A DNA stretch of 64,000 bases, from contig NZ_LR792632.1 of NCBI RefSeq assembly GCF_902827225.1, forward strand, positions 329,030 to 393,029, read 5' to 3'. Shown piece by piece: positions 43,371 through 51,036 of this stretch (position 1 is its first letter; every line of letters starts with the position of its first letter). A program made the translations under genes and the position numbers. The stretch is from Methanocaldococcus lauensis (GTDB lineage Archaea > AGJL01 > Methanococci > Methanococcales > Methanocaldococcaceae). The notes under the pieces are model-generated. The model ran no database searches and was not told where the DNA came from. It saw only the letters and a list, made by a program, of their open reading frames with translations.

Positions 43371-44633
43371 TTAATCTAATTTATTAGTTATGTATCCTTT
43401 AATTGCACTTATTGCAGCAACTTTTGGTGATGCCAAATAAATATAGCTATTTATATGTCCCATTCTTCCTCTAAAATTCCTATTTGTCGTTGATAAACAA
43501 ACTTCCCCCTCAGCTAAAACTCCTTGATGAGCCCCTAAGCAAGGACCACAACCTGGAGGACAAATCATTGCTCCAGCTTTAACAAATATATCAATAAGCC
43601 CCTCCTTTAACGCTTGCATAAAAACCTTTTTTGATGCAGGAATGATAATTAATTTAACATCTTTATGAACCTCCCTACCCTTTAAGTATTTAGCCGCTTC
43701 TCTTAAATCACTCAATCTTCCATTTGTACAACTACCTATAAAAACTTGATCAATTTCAATTCCTTCAACTTCACTAACTGGCTTTACATTATCAGGATGG
43801 TGTGGAACTGCTATTTGCTCTTCCATATCTGTTATGTCAATCTCAATTTCTTTATAATAACTCTCCTTTTCCCTATTTACTGTTATTCTTTCTTTTTTTA
43901 ATTTTGCAATTTCTTCATCACCTAAATTCCTCTCTTTCTTTAAATAGTTGTAAGTTATTTCATCTGCCTCTATAACTCCTGTTTTTCCTCCCATTTCTAT
44001 TGCCATATTACATAATGTTAATCTCCCATCCATATCCATATTTTTTACAACTTCTCCACCATATTCAATAGCCATGTATGTAGCTCCTCTCCTACCTATC
44101 TCTTTACAAACTCTCAAAACAATATCTTTAGCAGAAATATTTTCATTTTTTCCAACAATATCAACCCTAATAGTTTTTGGCACTTTAATCCATGTTTCCC
44201 CTGTTGCATAAATATAAGCCATGTCTGTGGCTCCAAAGCCAGTGGCAAAAGCTCCAAAAGCTCCATGAGTGCATGTATGGCTGTCTCCACCAGCTACAAA
44301 CATATTAGGAAAAACATAATTTTCAGCTAAGATTTGATGACAAATACCTTCCCCTCCTTTATGGAACTTTTTTATGCCAAATCTCTTAACGAACTCTAAA
44401 GCCAATTTTTGCATTTCAGCAGCTTTAACTGTATTTGCTGGGACATTGTGGTCGAAGGCAACAACTATTTTATCTGGATTCCAAACGCTATCGCTCATCT
44501 CTTTTAAAGCTTTATAAGCTAATGGAGTAGTTCCATCATGAGTCATTGCCAAATCAACTTCAACCTCTATGCTATCTCCTTCATAGACATTATAACCAAC
44601 TTTTTTTGATAATATCTTCTCCACTAATGTCAA
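43371..44633 (-). CDS. hacA: Homoaconitase large subunit
   Basis: A 420-residue member of the LeuC/aconitase family. The 4Fe-4S ligands are in FIGSCTNGRLSDL and CPPGCGPCLGAHQG. The gene matches M. jannaschii MJ1003 in my recollection, which is the large subunit of homoaconitase for 2-oxosuberate synthesis (coenzyme B biotin-like side chain). Isopropylmalate isomerase is the alternative, as both have similar large subunits. The start is a TTG after GGAGGTGATAAA, a strong ribosome-binding site. The small subunit is not adjacent. Confidence 0.82.
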   Translation of the reverse strand: MTLVEKILSKKVGYNVYEGDSIEVEVDLAMTHDGTTPLAYKALKEMSDSVWNPDKIVVAFDHNVPANTVKAAEMQKLALEFVKRFGIKKFHKGGEGICHQILAENYVFPNMFVAGGDSHTCTHGAFGAFATGFGATDMAYIYATGETWIKVPKTIRVDIVGKNENISAKDIVLRVCKEIGRRGATYMAIEYGGEVVKNMDMDGRLTLCNMAIEMGGKTGVIEADEITYNYLKKERNLGDEEIAKLKKERITVNREKESYYKEIEIDITDMEEQIAVPHHPDNVKPVSEVEGIEIDQVFIGSCTNGRLSDLREAAKYLKGREVHKDVKLIIIPASKKVFMQALKEGLIDIFVKAGAMICPPGCGPCLGAHQGVLAEGEVCLSTTNRNFRGRMGHINSYIYLASPKVAAISAIKGYITNKLD

Positions 44634-45427: not shown

Positions 45428-46924
45428 ATTAAATTTTTAGAAGGAATAGTTGATTTCCTACAAAAAAATGTAAAAACAATATTTTCCTATCCCGGAGAGC
45501 AGATACTTCCACTTTATAATGAGATAGAAAATAGTAGTATAAAAAATATTATGGCTAAAGATGAGAGAGGATCTGGCTTTATGGCTGATGGTTATGCAAG
45601 AATAACTAACTATATAGGAGTTTGCTTGGTAACTGCTGGACCAGGAAGCACAAATTTAACTACTCCAATAGCTAATGCTTACAAAGATAATTCCTCAGTA
45701 TTAGCCATAACTGGAAGATGTGAAAGAAAATATATTGGTAAAAATTACTTCCAAGAGATTAATATGGATTTCTTAAATTTTTACAAAGGGTATTTTATTA
45801 ACAACGATGATATAAATTCTATTGTTTCAGCATTTAGAGATTGTCTATACAACAAAAAGCCAGTTCAGATAAATATTCCCTCTGATGTATATAAAGATAA
45901 AGTTGATGAAAATGATTTATATAACAATAATATATATTATAATAATGACAACGAAAATGGTAATGGAATAATTGATATAGATAAAATAAACTCCGAACTG
46001 TCTAATGCTAAAAAACCACTATTTTTAATTGGACAAGGGATTTATGGAAATTTAAGTTATAATGAAATGCTAAAAATATCCAAAATTTTGGAAAAATTAG
46101 ATTGTCCAATATCTACAACATTTCCAAGTAGAGGAGTTATTGATGAAAATTTAAATAACTGTGTGGGTTTAGTTGGTAGAAGAGGAGATATAAAATCTTT
46201 ATTGGAGGCAGATAAGATAATAAATTTTGGTTCGTCACTTTCATACAATACTTATGTTGAAAGTGTTAGGGAAAAACTTTTAAAGAAAACTGTAAATATA
46301 AACCTAAAACCAAAAAGTATTAAAGAGTTAAAAGAATTTTTTAAAGATTTAAGTATAGATAACAAAAACTGGTTTTATAACAAAGAAAATAAATTCTCTC
46401 CTAATGGAGATTATTCAACTAAAATAAATGAAATAATTGAAAGTATTCCAGAAGATTCTATAATAGTTACAGACGCTGGAAAACATACGGTATTTACTTG
46501 CCTATTAAAAAAATGCGTTGTTCCAAGAAATATTATTTCATCTCATTCGTTTGGTTCTATGGGCTTTGGTTTGCCAGCATCTATAGGAGTTAAATTTGGA
46601 TGTATTGACTTTAATATTGATAGAGATATTATACTGATTAGTGGGGATGGTGGCTTTTTAATGAATATTGAAGAATTACAGGTAGTTTCTGAACATAATT
46701 TAAAAATTTTAATGATTGTAATGAAAAATAATAAATTGGCTGAATTTTGCAAAATAAAAAATCCTAACTTTAATAAATTGGCTGAAGCCTTTGAAATAGA
46801 TAATTGCTACATAGAAAAAGCTGATGAGATTAGTTCAACAATTAAAGAGTTTTTAAAGAAAGATAAGCCATTATTAATGGTTATTGAGACAGAGGATGAA
46901 AAACTACCTAACCCAAATATATAA
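45428..46924 (+). CDS. Acetolactate synthase-like thiamine diphosphate enzyme, apparent AUU start
   Basis: A ThDP-dependent enzyme of the acetolactate synthase/pyruvate decarboxylase superfamily. The frame shows YPGEQILPLYNEI, the catalytic-glutamate region KDERGSGFMADGYAR, TAGPGSTNL, and the ThDP/Mg motif GDGGFLMN ... KNN. The first ATG is at 45551, which would delete about 41 residues including the N-terminal ThDP-binding strand. No ATG, GTG or TTG occurs in frame after the upstream stop at 45416-45418, but ATT at 45428 follows GGTGAG by 3 nt, the same spacing as fprA and ptr2. A full-length product of 498 residues from AUU is the best reading. Specific substrate unknown. Confidence 0.8.
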   Translation: MKFLEGIVDFLQKNVKTIFSYPGEQILPLYNEIENSSIKNIMAKDERGSGFMADGYARITNYIGVCLVTAGPGSTNLTTPIANAYKDNSSVLAITGRCERKYIGKNYFQEINMDFLNFYKGYFINNDDINSIVSAFRDCLYNKKPVQINIPSDVYKDKVDENDLYNNNIYYNNDNENGNGIIDIDKINSELSNAKKPLFLIGQGIYGNLSYNEMLKISKILEKLDCPISTTFPSRGVIDENLNNCVGLVGRRGDIKSLLEADKIINFGSSLSYNTYVESVREKLLKKTVNINLKPKSIKELKEFFKDLSIDNKNWFYNKENKFSPNGDYSTKINEIIESIPEDSIIVTDAGKHTVFTCLLKKCVVPRNIISSHSFGSMGFGLPASIGVKFGCIDFNIDRDIILISGDGGFLMNIEELQVVSEHNLKILMIVMKNNKLAEFCKIKNPNFNKLAEAFEIDNCYIEKADEISSTIKEFLKKDKPLLMVIETEDEKLPNPNI

Positions 46925-46983: not shown

Positions 46984-47853
46984 ATGGAAGTTTTAACTGA
47001 GTTATTTAACATTTTATCAAAAGATTTACACTTTAATGTTACAAAATTGGACTCTAAAACTTATGAACAAAATTGGAAAGTTCCAGAAGGATTTATTTCC
47101 ATAATTGGTTTAGAAAATGCTAAGATGCCAGTATTTTACTATGGATTAACAGATTCTTACAAAGAGGAGTATAAGCTTAAAAAAGTTGTTACACCTAAAG
47201 GACAAAAACAGGTTTTTGCAAGACTCTACTACATATTTGACAGAAGAGATATTATAGAAAAAGAGAAATATGTTGTTGCGAATGCATTTAATGGACTTTT
47301 ATTACTTATAAAATTTGATAAAAATGAATTTATTGAAAAAGCAATTGAAATGCTAACAAGAGGTTATGAAGAAGATGATTTTATTAAAGAAGTTATTAAT
47401 AAGGTTAAAGAAAAAAATATGTTTGACTCTGTTGAAGAAACTATAAGATTTATGGCTAATAGAGATTATAACTGGATTATTGGAAAAATAAAATACAATG
47501 TAGGTAGTTTAGAGTATTCTGGACAAGGTTTCTATTTACTTCCTATAAAAACAAATATGCAGATAACTCCGGGGCTAAAAATTGAAAATGGTAAAGTTAT
47601 TATTGACTTGGAGAATTCACATTTATTTAAAAACTTTATTGTATATGTGGATACTATCAACAACAAAATAATCTTTAACAAACAAAGATTGTGTAATAAA
47701 ACACCAGCTATATTAGAAATAATGTCAAAAATTGATGACAACACTTGTCCTTGGTGTGGTGCTAAATTAAGAGTAGTTAAAACAAAAAAAGGAGAGTTTT
47801 TAGGTTGTACAAATTACCCAAAGTGTTTGTATAGAAGATTTCCAAAGAAATAA
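46984..47853 (+). CDS. Hypothetical protein with C-terminal topoisomerase-type zinc ribbon
   Basis: A 289-residue protein of unknown function. The last ~40 residues (CPWCGAKLRVVKTKKG then FLGCTNYPKCLYR) form the zinc finger seen at the C-terminus of type IA topoisomerases, with CX2C and CX5-type cysteines. The N-terminal ~240 residues are unrecognised. A DNA or RNA binding role is plausible. GGAGGGATACT precedes the ATG. It ends about 250 bp before the foreign-looking island. Confidence 0.82.
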   Translation: MEVLTELFNILSKDLHFNVTKLDSKTYEQNWKVPEGFISIIGLENAKMPVFYYGLTDSYKEEYKLKKVVTPKGQKQVFARLYYIFDRRDIIEKEKYVVANAFNGLLLLIKFDKNEFIEKAIEMLTRGYEEDDFIKEVINKVKEKNMFDSVEETIRFMANRDYNWIIGKIKYNVGSLEYSGQGFYLLPIKTNMQITPGLKIENGKVIIDLENSHLFKNFIVYVDTINNKIIFNKQRLCNKTPAILEIMSKIDDNTCPWCGAKLRVVKTKKGEFLGCTNYPKCLYRRFPKK

Positions 47854-47917: not shown

Positions 47918-48101
47918 ATTCCAATATATCGTTTATATCATATATTCTCGTATCTCATCTTTTCGCTACCATATTTTTTTATTTTGTTATTATATTAATA
48001 TATAAATATTATTTGATTTTAGACACACTCATCCGTTTAGTAAATCATATATACCCTTTTGTTCTATATAATGAACAACATAATAAAGTGAGGTGAATAT
48101 A

Positions 48102-50054
48102 GTGGACAAAAAGGATAGCCTATTAGTAGCTGTTGGAAGAAGGATATCCAGATTAAGAAAGGAAAGGGGGATTACATTATCGGGTCTTGCCAAAGTTGCT
48201 GGAATTTCAAAATCAACGCTATCTACTATAGAATCTGGGGATGCGAATCCTACAATATCTACATTGTGGGCAATAGCAGATGCCCTTAATGTTCCATTCG
48301 GAGAACTTCTTCCAGAAGAATTTAAGGAGGTTGATGAGTCTGGAATAACTGTTCGACTTATAGAACGATCGGAGGGAGAGCCAAAAATTGAAGTTTACAA
48401 GATGATCCTAAGCCCAAAGAGTGTTAGAAGAGCTAATCCCCATCAAAAAGGTGTGATTGAGAAGGTTCTCGTAGTAAGCGGTAGCATGCTAACAGGACCA
48501 GTATCATCTCCTAAACTCTTAAAAGCTGGAGAAGAGATGGAATTCAAAGCTGATGTGCCTCACGTATACATGGCTATGGATGAAGGAGCAACAGCAATAA
48601 TCACAATAAAATATCCATTGCTTGAGGACTCTTATAATCAATACGACATTATTAAGCCGTTTCCGGAGAATGACGTTGAATGGGATGGCTTAAAATCCTT
48701 GTTAAGCAGGTTAAGTGAAGAATCTCTTTTAGGTATCCCAGTATTTAGAATTGAACTTCATGGAGGCTATACGAGAGATGATCTAAGAAAACTAAAGGAC
48801 ATCCTTTATTCGCTTAAAGTAAAAAACCTAAAGCCCCACCTAATTGAAGATAACCATAGGGTATTAATATACTTATTTAGTACCTTTCCGGGAACTTTTA
48901 GGAGTTTTGATTCAGTTAGCTTAAATGACAAGAAATTCCATGAAGCGGTAAAAATTCTTAAACTCTCTAATAAGCAAAAATTATCAGAAGATGAGTTTAA
49001 GTATTTACAAGATTTAACAAGTGACTCATCATTCTTGCTAAGTGTCTTAGCATCAGAAGTGCTCTTAATCCATGCATATCCTACAATTCCCAATATAATT
49101 CTTAAGTTATACGAAAAAGACGTAAAGATATTTTACAAGCCTAAAACGTCATTCGAAGAGAGGATTAATGTCGGTTTATACAACGCTTTTGAACCACTTC
49201 ACCCCGGTTATGCTCGGCAAGCATTGTTTATTGCTTATATCGTCAGAAAATACTTTGGAGATGAAAAAATTCAAGCCCTTGATGTAGGAACTGGTCCAGG
49301 TCATCACTTAAAAATGTTATATGAGTTAGTACCTTACCTTAGTGTTCTATGCGTAGAAAATAGCCCAAAAGCCATAGAATACCTTAAAAATAATCTTAAA
49401 GGGTTTAATTTTGGTTATATTCTTGAAGACTTCCTAGAATTCAAGTATTATGATAAAAAGGTGCCGTTGATAATTTCTGTCGGCTCATCTCATCACATGA
49501 ATACTCTGTTCTTCTTAGAGAAATCATATGATTTACTTGAAAATGGTGGTATTCTGATTGTTTCCGACGAGTTTATCTCACCCTACCATGATCGCTTAGA
49601 AAGAGCGAGGAATATTATATCCCATCATACGAAATACATGCTGGAAACTTTGGTTGAAATACCAGAAAATGCTAATCTAACGGATGAAGAAAGAAGGTTA
49701 GTCAAACTTTTATCGAGAAATATACCTTTGATTTCATATCTTGCAGAGATTGGAGAGGTTAGAACTGCTATGAGCTATGCATTTCAACTCTTTAGAGATC
49801 TCAATAGGATTTTAATTCCTCCCAAAATCTCTCATCCGTTTATATCTTACTACATATTTCAATACTTAGAGCTATCAGCAATGATTGCAGGTCTTGATTA
49901 CGAAGTTGAAAGAAAAACGTACCCTGAAAGGTTTAAATCACTTGCAGAAGAAACTGGATTTTCTTTATTACACCACACGAGAATCTATGCCACTCACGGA
50001 GCAAACGAGATGGACGCGGGAACACACATCTTCGCTCTAAAAAAGGAGGGGTAA
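48102..50054 (+). CDS. HTH-cupin-methyltransferase fusion regulator
   Basis: A protein of 650 residues with three parts: an N-terminal XRE/HTH_3 domain (about 6-60, with GRRISRLRKERGITLSGL then AKVAGISKSTLSTIESG), a cupin-like sensor domain (about 90-170, with VLVVSGSMLTGP), a helical middle part, and a C-terminal class I SAM methyltransferase (about 340-650; motif I DVGTGPGHHLKML, acidic VEN). HTH-cupin proteins are common amino-acid-responsive regulators; fusion to a methyltransferase is unusual. The GTG at 48102 follows GTGAGGTGA, preferred over GTG 48093. AzlC/AzlD follow within 2 bp. Codons include CGA, CGG, CGC and TCG, rare around it. Confidence 0.8.
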   Translation: MDKKDSLLVAVGRRISRLRKERGITLSGLAKVAGISKSTLSTIESGDANPTISTLWAIADALNVPFGELLPEEFKEVDESGITVRLIERSEGEPKIEVYKMILSPKSVRRANPHQKGVIEKVLVVSGSMLTGPVSSPKLLKAGEEMEFKADVPHVYMAMDEGATAIITIKYPLLEDSYNQYDIIKPFPENDVEWDGLKSLLSRLSEESLLGIPVFRIELHGGYTRDDLRKLKDILYSLKVKNLKPHLIEDNHRVLIYLFSTFPGTFRSFDSVSLNDKKFHEAVKILKLSNKQKLSEDEFKYLQDLTSDSSFLLSVLASEVLLIHAYPTIPNIILKLYEKDVKIFYKPKTSFEERINVGLYNAFEPLHPGYARQALFIAYIVRKYFGDEKIQALDVGTGPGHHLKMLYELVPYLSVLCVENSPKAIEYLKNNLKGFNFGYILEDFLEFKYYDKKVPLIISVGSSHHMNTLFFLEKSYDLLENGGILIVSDEFISPYHDRLERARNIISHHTKYMLETLVEIPENANLTDEERRLVKLLSRNIPLISYLAEIGEVRTAMSYAFQLFRDLNRILIPPKISHPFISYYIFQYLELSAMIAGLDYEVERKTYPERFKSLAEETGFSLLHHTRIYATHGANEMDAGTHIFALKKEG

Positions 50055-50056
50055 AG

Positions 50057-50695
50057 ATGTTTAAAAAGGGATTGATTGCTAGCTTTCCAATAGTGATTGG
50101 TTATATCCCTGTTGCCATAACTTTTGGAGTAACTGCGTTGGCGTTAGGATTCAATGAAGTCGAAGCAATTCTTGCATCAGCATTAATCTTTGCCGGAGCA
50201 AGTCAATTTGCATTAATTTCACTTGCATCGAATTCGTTAATTGATGCGGTAACTATTCCAATAATTTTAAATTTAAGGCATATAGTTTACGGTTGCATAG
50301 TATCTCAAAGGTTTGAAATAAGAAATCCGTTTATAACTGCATTTGGATTGACGGATGAGGTTTTTGCAACATCTTTAAACGCTCCAAACAGTGAGAGGTT
50401 TAGTTGGGGTTTAGAATTGGGAGCTTATCTATCTTGGGTTTTGGGAACTGCGATTGGTATTCTTGGTGGAGCAGTTTTACTTTCTAATGAAACTTTAGCT
50501 CCTTCTCTGGTGTTTGCACTTACAGCTTTATTCTTAGTGCTCTTAATTCCCAACCTTAAAGGATATCACACGCTATCTGCGTTAATTGGAGGGACTATCG
50601 CTCTAATATTTCATTACTTTGGATATACTTCAATGGGAATTCTACTCGCGGGTATTTTAAGTCCAATAGTGGTTCTAAAAATCAAAAATAGGTGA
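50057..50695 (+). CDS. azlC: AzlC-family branched-chain amino acid exporter subunit
   Basis: A 212-residue polytopic membrane protein of the AzlC family, the large subunit of AzlCD exporters for branched-chain amino acids and their analogues. Recognised from PVAITFGVTALALGF, the FAGASQFALISL segment and NLRHIVYG. About five to seven helices. GGAGGGGT lies 5 nt before the ATG, and the gene starts 2 bp after the fusion-regulator stop, so the two are cotranscribed. Confidence 0.9.
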   Translation: MFKKGLIASFPIVIGYIPVAITFGVTALALGFNEVEAILASALIFAGASQFALISLASNSLIDAVTIPIILNLRHIVYGCIVSQRFEIRNPFITAFGLTDEVFATSLNAPNSERFSWGLELGAYLSWVLGTAIGILGGAVLLSNETLAPSLVFALTALFLVLLIPNLKGYHTLSALIGGTIALIFHYFGYTSMGILLAGILSPIVVLKIKNR

Positions 50696-50700
50696 TAAAA

Positions 50701-51036
50701 ATGATAGAACACTACGTAGCAATAATATTGGTTGCGATAGGAACATATCTATCAAGATTTTTACCAATATATTTTAATGAAAGATTTAAAAGGTTAAAGG
50801 GTTTTAACGAATTCCTTGCGTATTCATCAACAGCCTTAATATCTGCACTTTTCATTACATCGCTCGTATCCTTTCCAGTTGAATTAAAAAACACAAGTAT
50901 AAGTATTGTAGCGTTAGCATTAGTCTTTGTATCTTACAAAAAATGGAAAAATTTAGGATTTTCTGTATTAATCGGAGTGATAGCACATTTATTATTATCT
51001 TTGGTAATTAAAAATTTCATAACATTAATAGTATAA
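50701..51036 (+). CDS. azlD: AzlD-family branched-chain amino acid exporter subunit
   Basis: A 111-residue membrane protein of the AzlD family, partner of AzlC. It has the conserved TYLSRFLPIYF near the N-terminus and about three to four helices. The start at 50701 follows GGTGAT; an in-frame GTG at 50692 overlaps the end of azlC. It completes the island. Confidence 0.88.
   Translation: MIEHYVAIILVAIGTYLSRFLPIYFNERFKRLKGFNEFLAYSSTALISALFITSLVSFPVELKNTSISIVALALVFVSYKKWKNLGFSVLIGVIAHLLLSLVIKNFITLIV

Follow-up and report, generated by a model that had tools for sequence, protein, structure and literature searches.

In the case of Methanocaldococcus lauensis, the exporter genes azlC and azlD follow a single gene whose product joins an XRE-type DNA-binding domain, a cupin and a methyltransferase-like domain. 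We favour the reading that this fusion protein is the local repressor of azlCD and that its recruited methyltransferase half has been shifting from an enzyme to an effector-binding domain; we regard this as rather likely. The reading builds on what can be taken from the sequence directly, namely the domain architecture, the operon, a conserved and genome-unique putative operator, and the loss of the SAM motif under constraint. Some thermophilic archaea and at least one bacterium have azlCD beside a predicted switch protein that is fused to a complete methyltransferase-like enzyme. In the following, the window is the whole 64,000-nucleotide (64-kb) stretch of DNA that was analysed, and loci in other genomes are numbered with L.

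Operon architecture and relatives

Open reading frames were called in the order fusion gene, azlC, azlD, all on the forward strand, at 48102-51036 (Table 1). The fusion and azlC are separated by 2 bp, and azlC and azlD overlap by 4 bp. The 650 codons of the fusion form a single open frame, and its GTG at 48102 is preceded by the ribosome-binding site GAGGTGA; an alternative start given by the ORF finder, 48093, falls within this GAGGTGA. AzlC (122.5 bits, cut-off 32.1) and AzlD (50.6 bits, cut-off 23.7) are encoded by adjacent genes, as is characteristic of the subunits of AzlCD (LIV-E). In the host genome (1.54 Mb, 2 contigs) AzlC and the C-terminal unit of the fusion are each present once. 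Within the same species, genome G005 also carries a copy of the operon.

Table 1. Coordinates of the operon features in the window.
Feature	Position	Strand	Remarks
Putative TATA box ATCATATATA	48044..48053	+	sequence; predicted function
Operator palindrome TTGTTC-TATATAAT-GAACAA	48059..48078	.	putative; directly behind TATA box, overlaps expected transcription start
Fusion HTH-cupin-linker-methyltransferase	48102..50054	+	GTG start, 650 aa; proposed autorepressor of operon
XRE/HTH_3 DNA-binding domain	48141..48311	+	residues about 14-70
Cupin domain	48327..48626	+	residues about 76-175; 1y9q and 6b8w matches
Linker/helical region	48627..49121	+	residues about 176-340; aligned with Cereibacter and stand-alone Streptomyces proteins
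Class I SAM-methyltransferase-type domain	49122..50051	+	residues about 341-650; Methyltransf_25, motif scan, invariant columns
azlC, exporter large subunit	50057..50695	+	212 aa; Pfam AzlC E 2.2e-35
azlD, exporter small subunit	50692..51036	+	114 aa, GTG start; Pfam AzlD E 2.2e-13

At the N-terminus of the fusion, Pfam HTH_3 matches residues 16-69 (E 8.7e-17, 61.3 bits). The solved HTH-cupin chain 1y9q matches residues 11-176 (E 1.5e-18) and 6b8w matches the cupin at residues 95-158. No Pfam cupin model was found at E<=1, and further cupin support comes from a sub-threshold Cupin_2 match in the Cereibacter homologue. An HTH_3 domain followed by a cupin, which is the order of XRE-cupin regulators, is therefore found here with the Pfam cupin models below threshold. 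The linker region matched no Pfam model. Behind it, Methyltransf_25 matches residues 393-483 (E 4.2e-10), with motif I (DVGTGPGHH) at 394-402 and a C-terminal motif (DAGTH) at 638-642. The open reading frames and domains thus agree with the earlier note, which had described XRE, cupin and methyltransferase domains in one polypeptide, tightly spaced with azlCD. AlphaFold models were too poor for use (pLDDT 52 for the whole fusion, 46 for the methyltransferase half), because alignment depth is lacking. A PADLOC match to mad2 of the MADS system was rejected as evidence for defence, as only ~140 residues around the SAM core are covered and a defence context is absent.

The order of fusion, azlC and azlD recurs in 8 archaeal loci from Methanocaldococcus and Archaeoglobaceae, and on a plasmid of Cereibacter azotoformans. 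The copies most similar to the window fusion (98-99% identity) are L002 and L004, the latter from Methanocaldococcus sp. SG1 (98% identical, same gene order). Archaeoglobaceae have the order at L002, L003 and L005, and further Archaeoglobi at L076, L077 and L078; the fusion was found in 6 of the 59 Archaeoglobi searched, with azlC directly behind it in 6 of 6. On the Cereibacter azotoformans plasmid pORIO1, a 652-aa homologue with about 34% identity to the window fusion, annotated as ‘methyltransferase domain-containing protein’, is followed by AzlC and AzlD. Two other Cereibacter plasmid records each gave two separate matches to the homologue. In the one of these that was inspected, from Cereibacter sphaeroides (L039, 2144-6726), an IS21-family element splits the fusion, and azlCD is intact behind the separated methyltransferase part. 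The bacterial sampling consists of plasmid records. L006, from a bin named WOR-3, was not counted as a bacterial case, as its neighbours nadA, nadX and nadC (NAD synthesis) look archaeal. No relatives were found in viral contigs or in phage records.

Co-occurrence of fusion and azlCD, as raised in the note, was found in all 8 archaeal loci with enough sequence and in Cereibacter. Among related AzlC genes (50-73% identity), the majority lack a regulator of this kind; the fusion is therefore a predictor of azlCD, but azlCD is no predictor of the fusion. Neither is the fusion an assembly or frameshift artefact, since other genomes carry full-length homologues in the same gene order; the frame is continuous in 8 of 9 archaeal loci (one is cut by a contig end) and in Cereibacter. 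At L076 the HTH-cupin part lies in another frame. Several loci are metagenome assemblies, and this frameshift, like the AzlC start at L005, may be an assembly error. In Methanocaldococcus genome G004 (L090, 953-1506) an azlD-like gene stands beside a C-terminal azlC remnant, and the exporter is apparently decaying.

Upstream of the operon, the window carries an acetolactate-synthase-like TPP enzyme (45551-46924, +). Its frame is open for ~45 codons upstream of the first ATG with no ATG, GTG or TTG, and its Pfam TPP_enzyme_N match begins at profile position 45; either the start codon is unusual or the gene is 5'-truncated. Between this gene and the operon lies a 289-aa protein (46984-47853, +) with a topoisomerase-I-type zinc ribbon at its end. 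A homoaconitase/LeuC-type gene precedes the operon by a few kb in the window (43371-44633), L077 (3544-4791) and L078 (3559-4806); SG1 has none there, so this neighbour is probably a coincidence.

A putative operator at the operon head

The upstream regions of the homologous operons have the palindrome TTGTTC-N8-GAACAA in common, directly behind a TATA-like sequence. This TATA-like stretch is conserved, together with its distance from the palindrome, at L002-L006, L077 and L009-L011, and variants of the operator core, less perfect and still recognisable, occur upstream of L076-L078. By itself the motif is not significant in the 64-kb window (1 match with <=1 mismatch, 0.30 expected), so the evidence for an operator lies in its distribution across genomes. 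In the 1.54-Mb host genome TGTTC-N8-GAACA is a single site. The sequence TGTTCTATATWAYGAACA occurs in exactly the 5 Methanococci genomes that have the operon, at the operon head, and in 0 of 31 others, and TGTTCTRTATAACGAACA occurs in 3 of 295 Halobacteriota genomes, 3 of 3 with the fusion and again at the operon head. Altogether, exact-pattern matches among 331 archaeal genomes are confined to the heads of HTH-cupin(-methyltransferase)-azlCD operons.

L009-L011, from other Methanococci, have a stand-alone HTH-cupin protein (67-70% identical) before azlCD. These operons without the methyltransferase half retain the operator; thus, presumably the HTH reads the site, and the enzyme half is dispensable for its persistence. 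In the case of Cereibacter, the operon is preceded by an unrelated perfect 16-bp palindrome, TTCCATTATAATGGAA, about 40 bp before the start codon; a palindrome like this one was obtained in 22 of 5000 shuffles.

The archaeal palindrome is predicted to be the dedicated operator that is typical of XRE-cupin regulators. Judging from its footprint, autorepression of azlCD through this site is very probable. The term ‘self-regulated’, used in the earlier note, is consequently well supported, as the genome-unique putative operator coincides with the putative transcription start and is restricted to such operons.

The methyltransferase half with and without its SAM site

Class I SAM methyltransferases are recognised by motif I ([DE]xGxGxG) and an acidic residue after strand 2, and the window fusion has both (DVGTGPG at 394, E419). 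The window, L002, L004 and Cereibacter share DVGTGPG as motif I, L005 has DVGSGCG and a Streptomyces homologue has DVGSGPG; the ribose-binding acidic residue (E419 in the window fusion) is present where motif I is intact. Five of the nine archaeal homologues have an altered or deleted motif I. Two of its residues are missing in L003 and L006, and L003 also lacks ~24 residues behind it; L076 has GVTFSDHN at this position and no acidic residue; L077 and L078 have lost motif I together with about 65 residues of the SAM-binding core. Apart from the missing stretch, these degenerate homologues can be aligned right up to the last residue. The description of a full SAM methyltransferase therefore fits the window fusion and does not fit these five relatives.

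Comparing the window with L005, dN/dS was 0.07-0.20 in all domains. Between L077 and L078, dN was 0.35 in the linker, 0.29 in the core remnant, 0.27 in the C-terminal part and 0.19 in the HTH, with dS at or near saturation; by these substitution values, the C-terminal regions of both are under purifying selection. Constraint despite SAM-motif loss implies that some lineages make use of this half without SAM chemistry. Methylation or detoxification followed by export, which the note had put forward, cannot hold as a general mechanism, because motif I is changed or missing in five of nine archaeal homologues although the protein stays under selection, and because the half is absent from three related operons. 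This weakening of an obligatory sense-methylate-export scheme and the operator palindrome are what is new here; neither the palindrome nor the ~165-residue linker (176-340) appeared in the note.

The proposed system is a mobile three-gene exporter operon controlled by its own local repressor, for which we infer repression, induction, the class of ligand and the export substrate. The HTH of the fusion would bind the one operator TTGTTC-N8-GAACAA on the transcription start and would thus repress the operon that contains azlCD and the fusion gene itself. Accumulation of an amino acid or analogue would lead to binding of this compound, or of a product made from it, to the cupin and/or the methyltransferase-derived half. 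The ligand-bound repressor would then release the operator, and AzlCD would export the compound. Going by the exporter family, an amino-acid-like export substrate is probable. The C-terminal half would descend from a complete stand-alone SAM-dependent enzyme, and its conserved role across archaea would be effector recognition or allosteric control; that it serves mainly in this way, and not in obligatory catalysis, seems somewhat likely. Against a sensor, motif I is kept in the window, L002, L004, L005 and both bacterial proteins. There the domain may be a working enzyme, and hence may be catalytic in the window species, and the copies with a degenerate SAM site could be derived exceptions.

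Such retained catalysis is central to a bifunctional, ArsRM-like protein that represses the operon and SAM-modifies a toxic amino acid or small peptide, with AzlCD exporting the product. ArsRM itself is a precedent for a regulator fused to a methyltransferase. The window, L002, L004, L005, Cereibacter and Streptomyces proteins all have an intact motif I and the acidic residue, and the methyltransferase half has numerous invariant His/Asp/Glu columns when bacteria and archaea are aligned. Further, the Streptomyces homologue adjoins a distant BesA relative, which suggests amino-acid chemistry. However, in view of the changed or missing SAM site in five of nine archaeal homologues, of which two demonstrably evolve under purifying selection, and of the lack of the domain in L009-L011, we consider this explanation unlikely. 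The sense-methylate-export scheme is similarly doubtful for the window species itself. In its widest form, this would be a system, present in archaea and bacteria, that regulates itself and both modifies and exports a non-protein amino acid or small peptide, where one polypeptide is repressor, sensor and SAM-dependent enzyme, and where relatives show an active enzyme, then SAM-site loss, then removal of the enzyme half; we hold this to be a tentative possibility.

A sensor of SAM or methionine status is improbable. Here, the intact pocket would read SAM/SAH and tune the export of methionine or branched-chain amino acids, in line with the intact SAM motif of the window and the breadth of the exporter family, as the same-type exporters BrnFE and YgaZH also export methionine. 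However, several homologues that have lost the SAM site still keep the fusion and azlC, and in the loci read the operon has no methionine gene next to it. Finally, a chance association of a methyltransferase gene with an HTH-cupin gene, side by side or fused and with no function in common, or an assembly or frameshift artefact, is hardly credible: damaged copies do exist (L076 in another frame, L039 split by the IS21 element), but the conserved architecture already contradicts it, with the frame continuous at nearly all archaeal loci and in Cereibacter, the same azlC partner, and low dN/dS in every domain.

Origin of the parts and comparison with known systems

To return to the repressor with a recruited enzyme half, a possible source of this half is seen on a Streptomyces plasmid, where the linker and methyltransferase unit is a separate 528-aa protein without HTH-cupin. 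The best NCBIfam match of the gene directly after it is BesA, an amino-acid-glutamate ligase (115 bits, cut-off 750, thus a distant relative). Because the stand-alone protein also carries the stretch 176-340, this stretch is part of the enzyme unit, and the fusion joined an HTH-cupin protein to the entire unit, including the ~165 residues before the SAM core. In the HTH-cupin tree, Cereibacter lies outside the archaeal group (0.81) and L009-L011 lie inside, beside the fusions (0.89, 0.94), a placement that favours, short of proof, loss of the enzyme half in the L009-L011 lineage.

Regarding mobility, L002 from Archaeoglobaceae has 97% DNA identity to the window over 48032-51027 only, that is, promoter and three genes, and the flanks are unrelated. 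The fusion gene has a G+C content of 36.6% against 29.7% for the window, and the operon's AzlC is placed in an Archaeoglobi-centred clade. Lateral transfer of the operon between vent archaea would be the simplest reading. In SG1, CRISPR-like repeats lie just upstream of the operon (L004, 5281-5583); homology to the window stops at window position 47961.

The natural proteins appear to line up as a separate enzyme, a fusion with SAM site, a fusion without SAM site and a regulator without enzyme half. Across the fused forms and the enzyme-less form the exporter partner is constant, and in archaea the operator core likewise. Preservation of the enzyme half after loss of the catalytic site in several relatives points to an enzyme on its way to becoming a sensor. 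Few cases, among them BzdR, underlie the idea that enzymes become regulators by gaining DNA-binding domains. The system also offers a handle on the control of amino-acid export in hyperthermophilic archaea, and its genome-unique putative operator, a 20-bp DNA site, would be suited to a sensor.

No earlier description of an XRE-cupin-methyltransferase fusion, or of its link to AzlCD, was found in the one open-access library searched, although such absence is not proof. BzdR of Azoarcus is an XRE repressor with an effector domain derived from shikimate kinase (PMC3602430). Both proteins link an XRE HTH to a recruited enzyme fold, which in BzdR became the effector-binding domain; in contrast to the fusion, BzdR has no cupin, has a kinase-type domain and controls benzoate genes, not an exporter. 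The best NCBIfam match of the window HTH is the BzdR subfamily NF006015, over residues 3-112 only (56.9 bits, cut-off 204). Membership in this family was rejected, as the likeness is confined to the HTH end and the shikimate-kinase-like C-terminal domain is absent.

In ArsRM of Brevundimonas, an ArsR repressor is fused to an arsenite methyltransferase (PMC10190100). A DNA-binding autoregulator (predicted here) fused to a SAM methyltransferase is common to both, whereas ArsRM has an arsenic substrate, a met operon instead of azlCD and no cupin. Its ArsR-type HTH is unrelated to the XRE type of the window, and membership was rejected on this ground. The AZE synthases AzeJ and VioH carry the signature motifs PFNxxGN and RxxYYxxC (PMC11794875). 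They share the class I methyltransferase fold and make an amino-acid-like product; in our motif scan both signatures were absent from all homologues, so this identity was discarded.

With XRE-cupin regulators (PuuR type; 1y9q) the fusion shares the N-terminal HTH plus cupin, and it differs in its additional 475-aa enzyme-derived half. In Bacillus subtilis, AzlCD is a promiscuous exporter under the dedicated repressor AzlB, and it confers resistance to 4-azaleucine, histidine and asparagine (PMC10882977). The archaeal operon resembles this arrangement in its exporter family and in a dedicated repressor (predicted here) encoded beside azlCD. AzlB, however, is an Lrp-type repressor with neither cupin nor methyltransferase, whereas the predicted repressor here is an XRE-cupin-methyltransferase protein.
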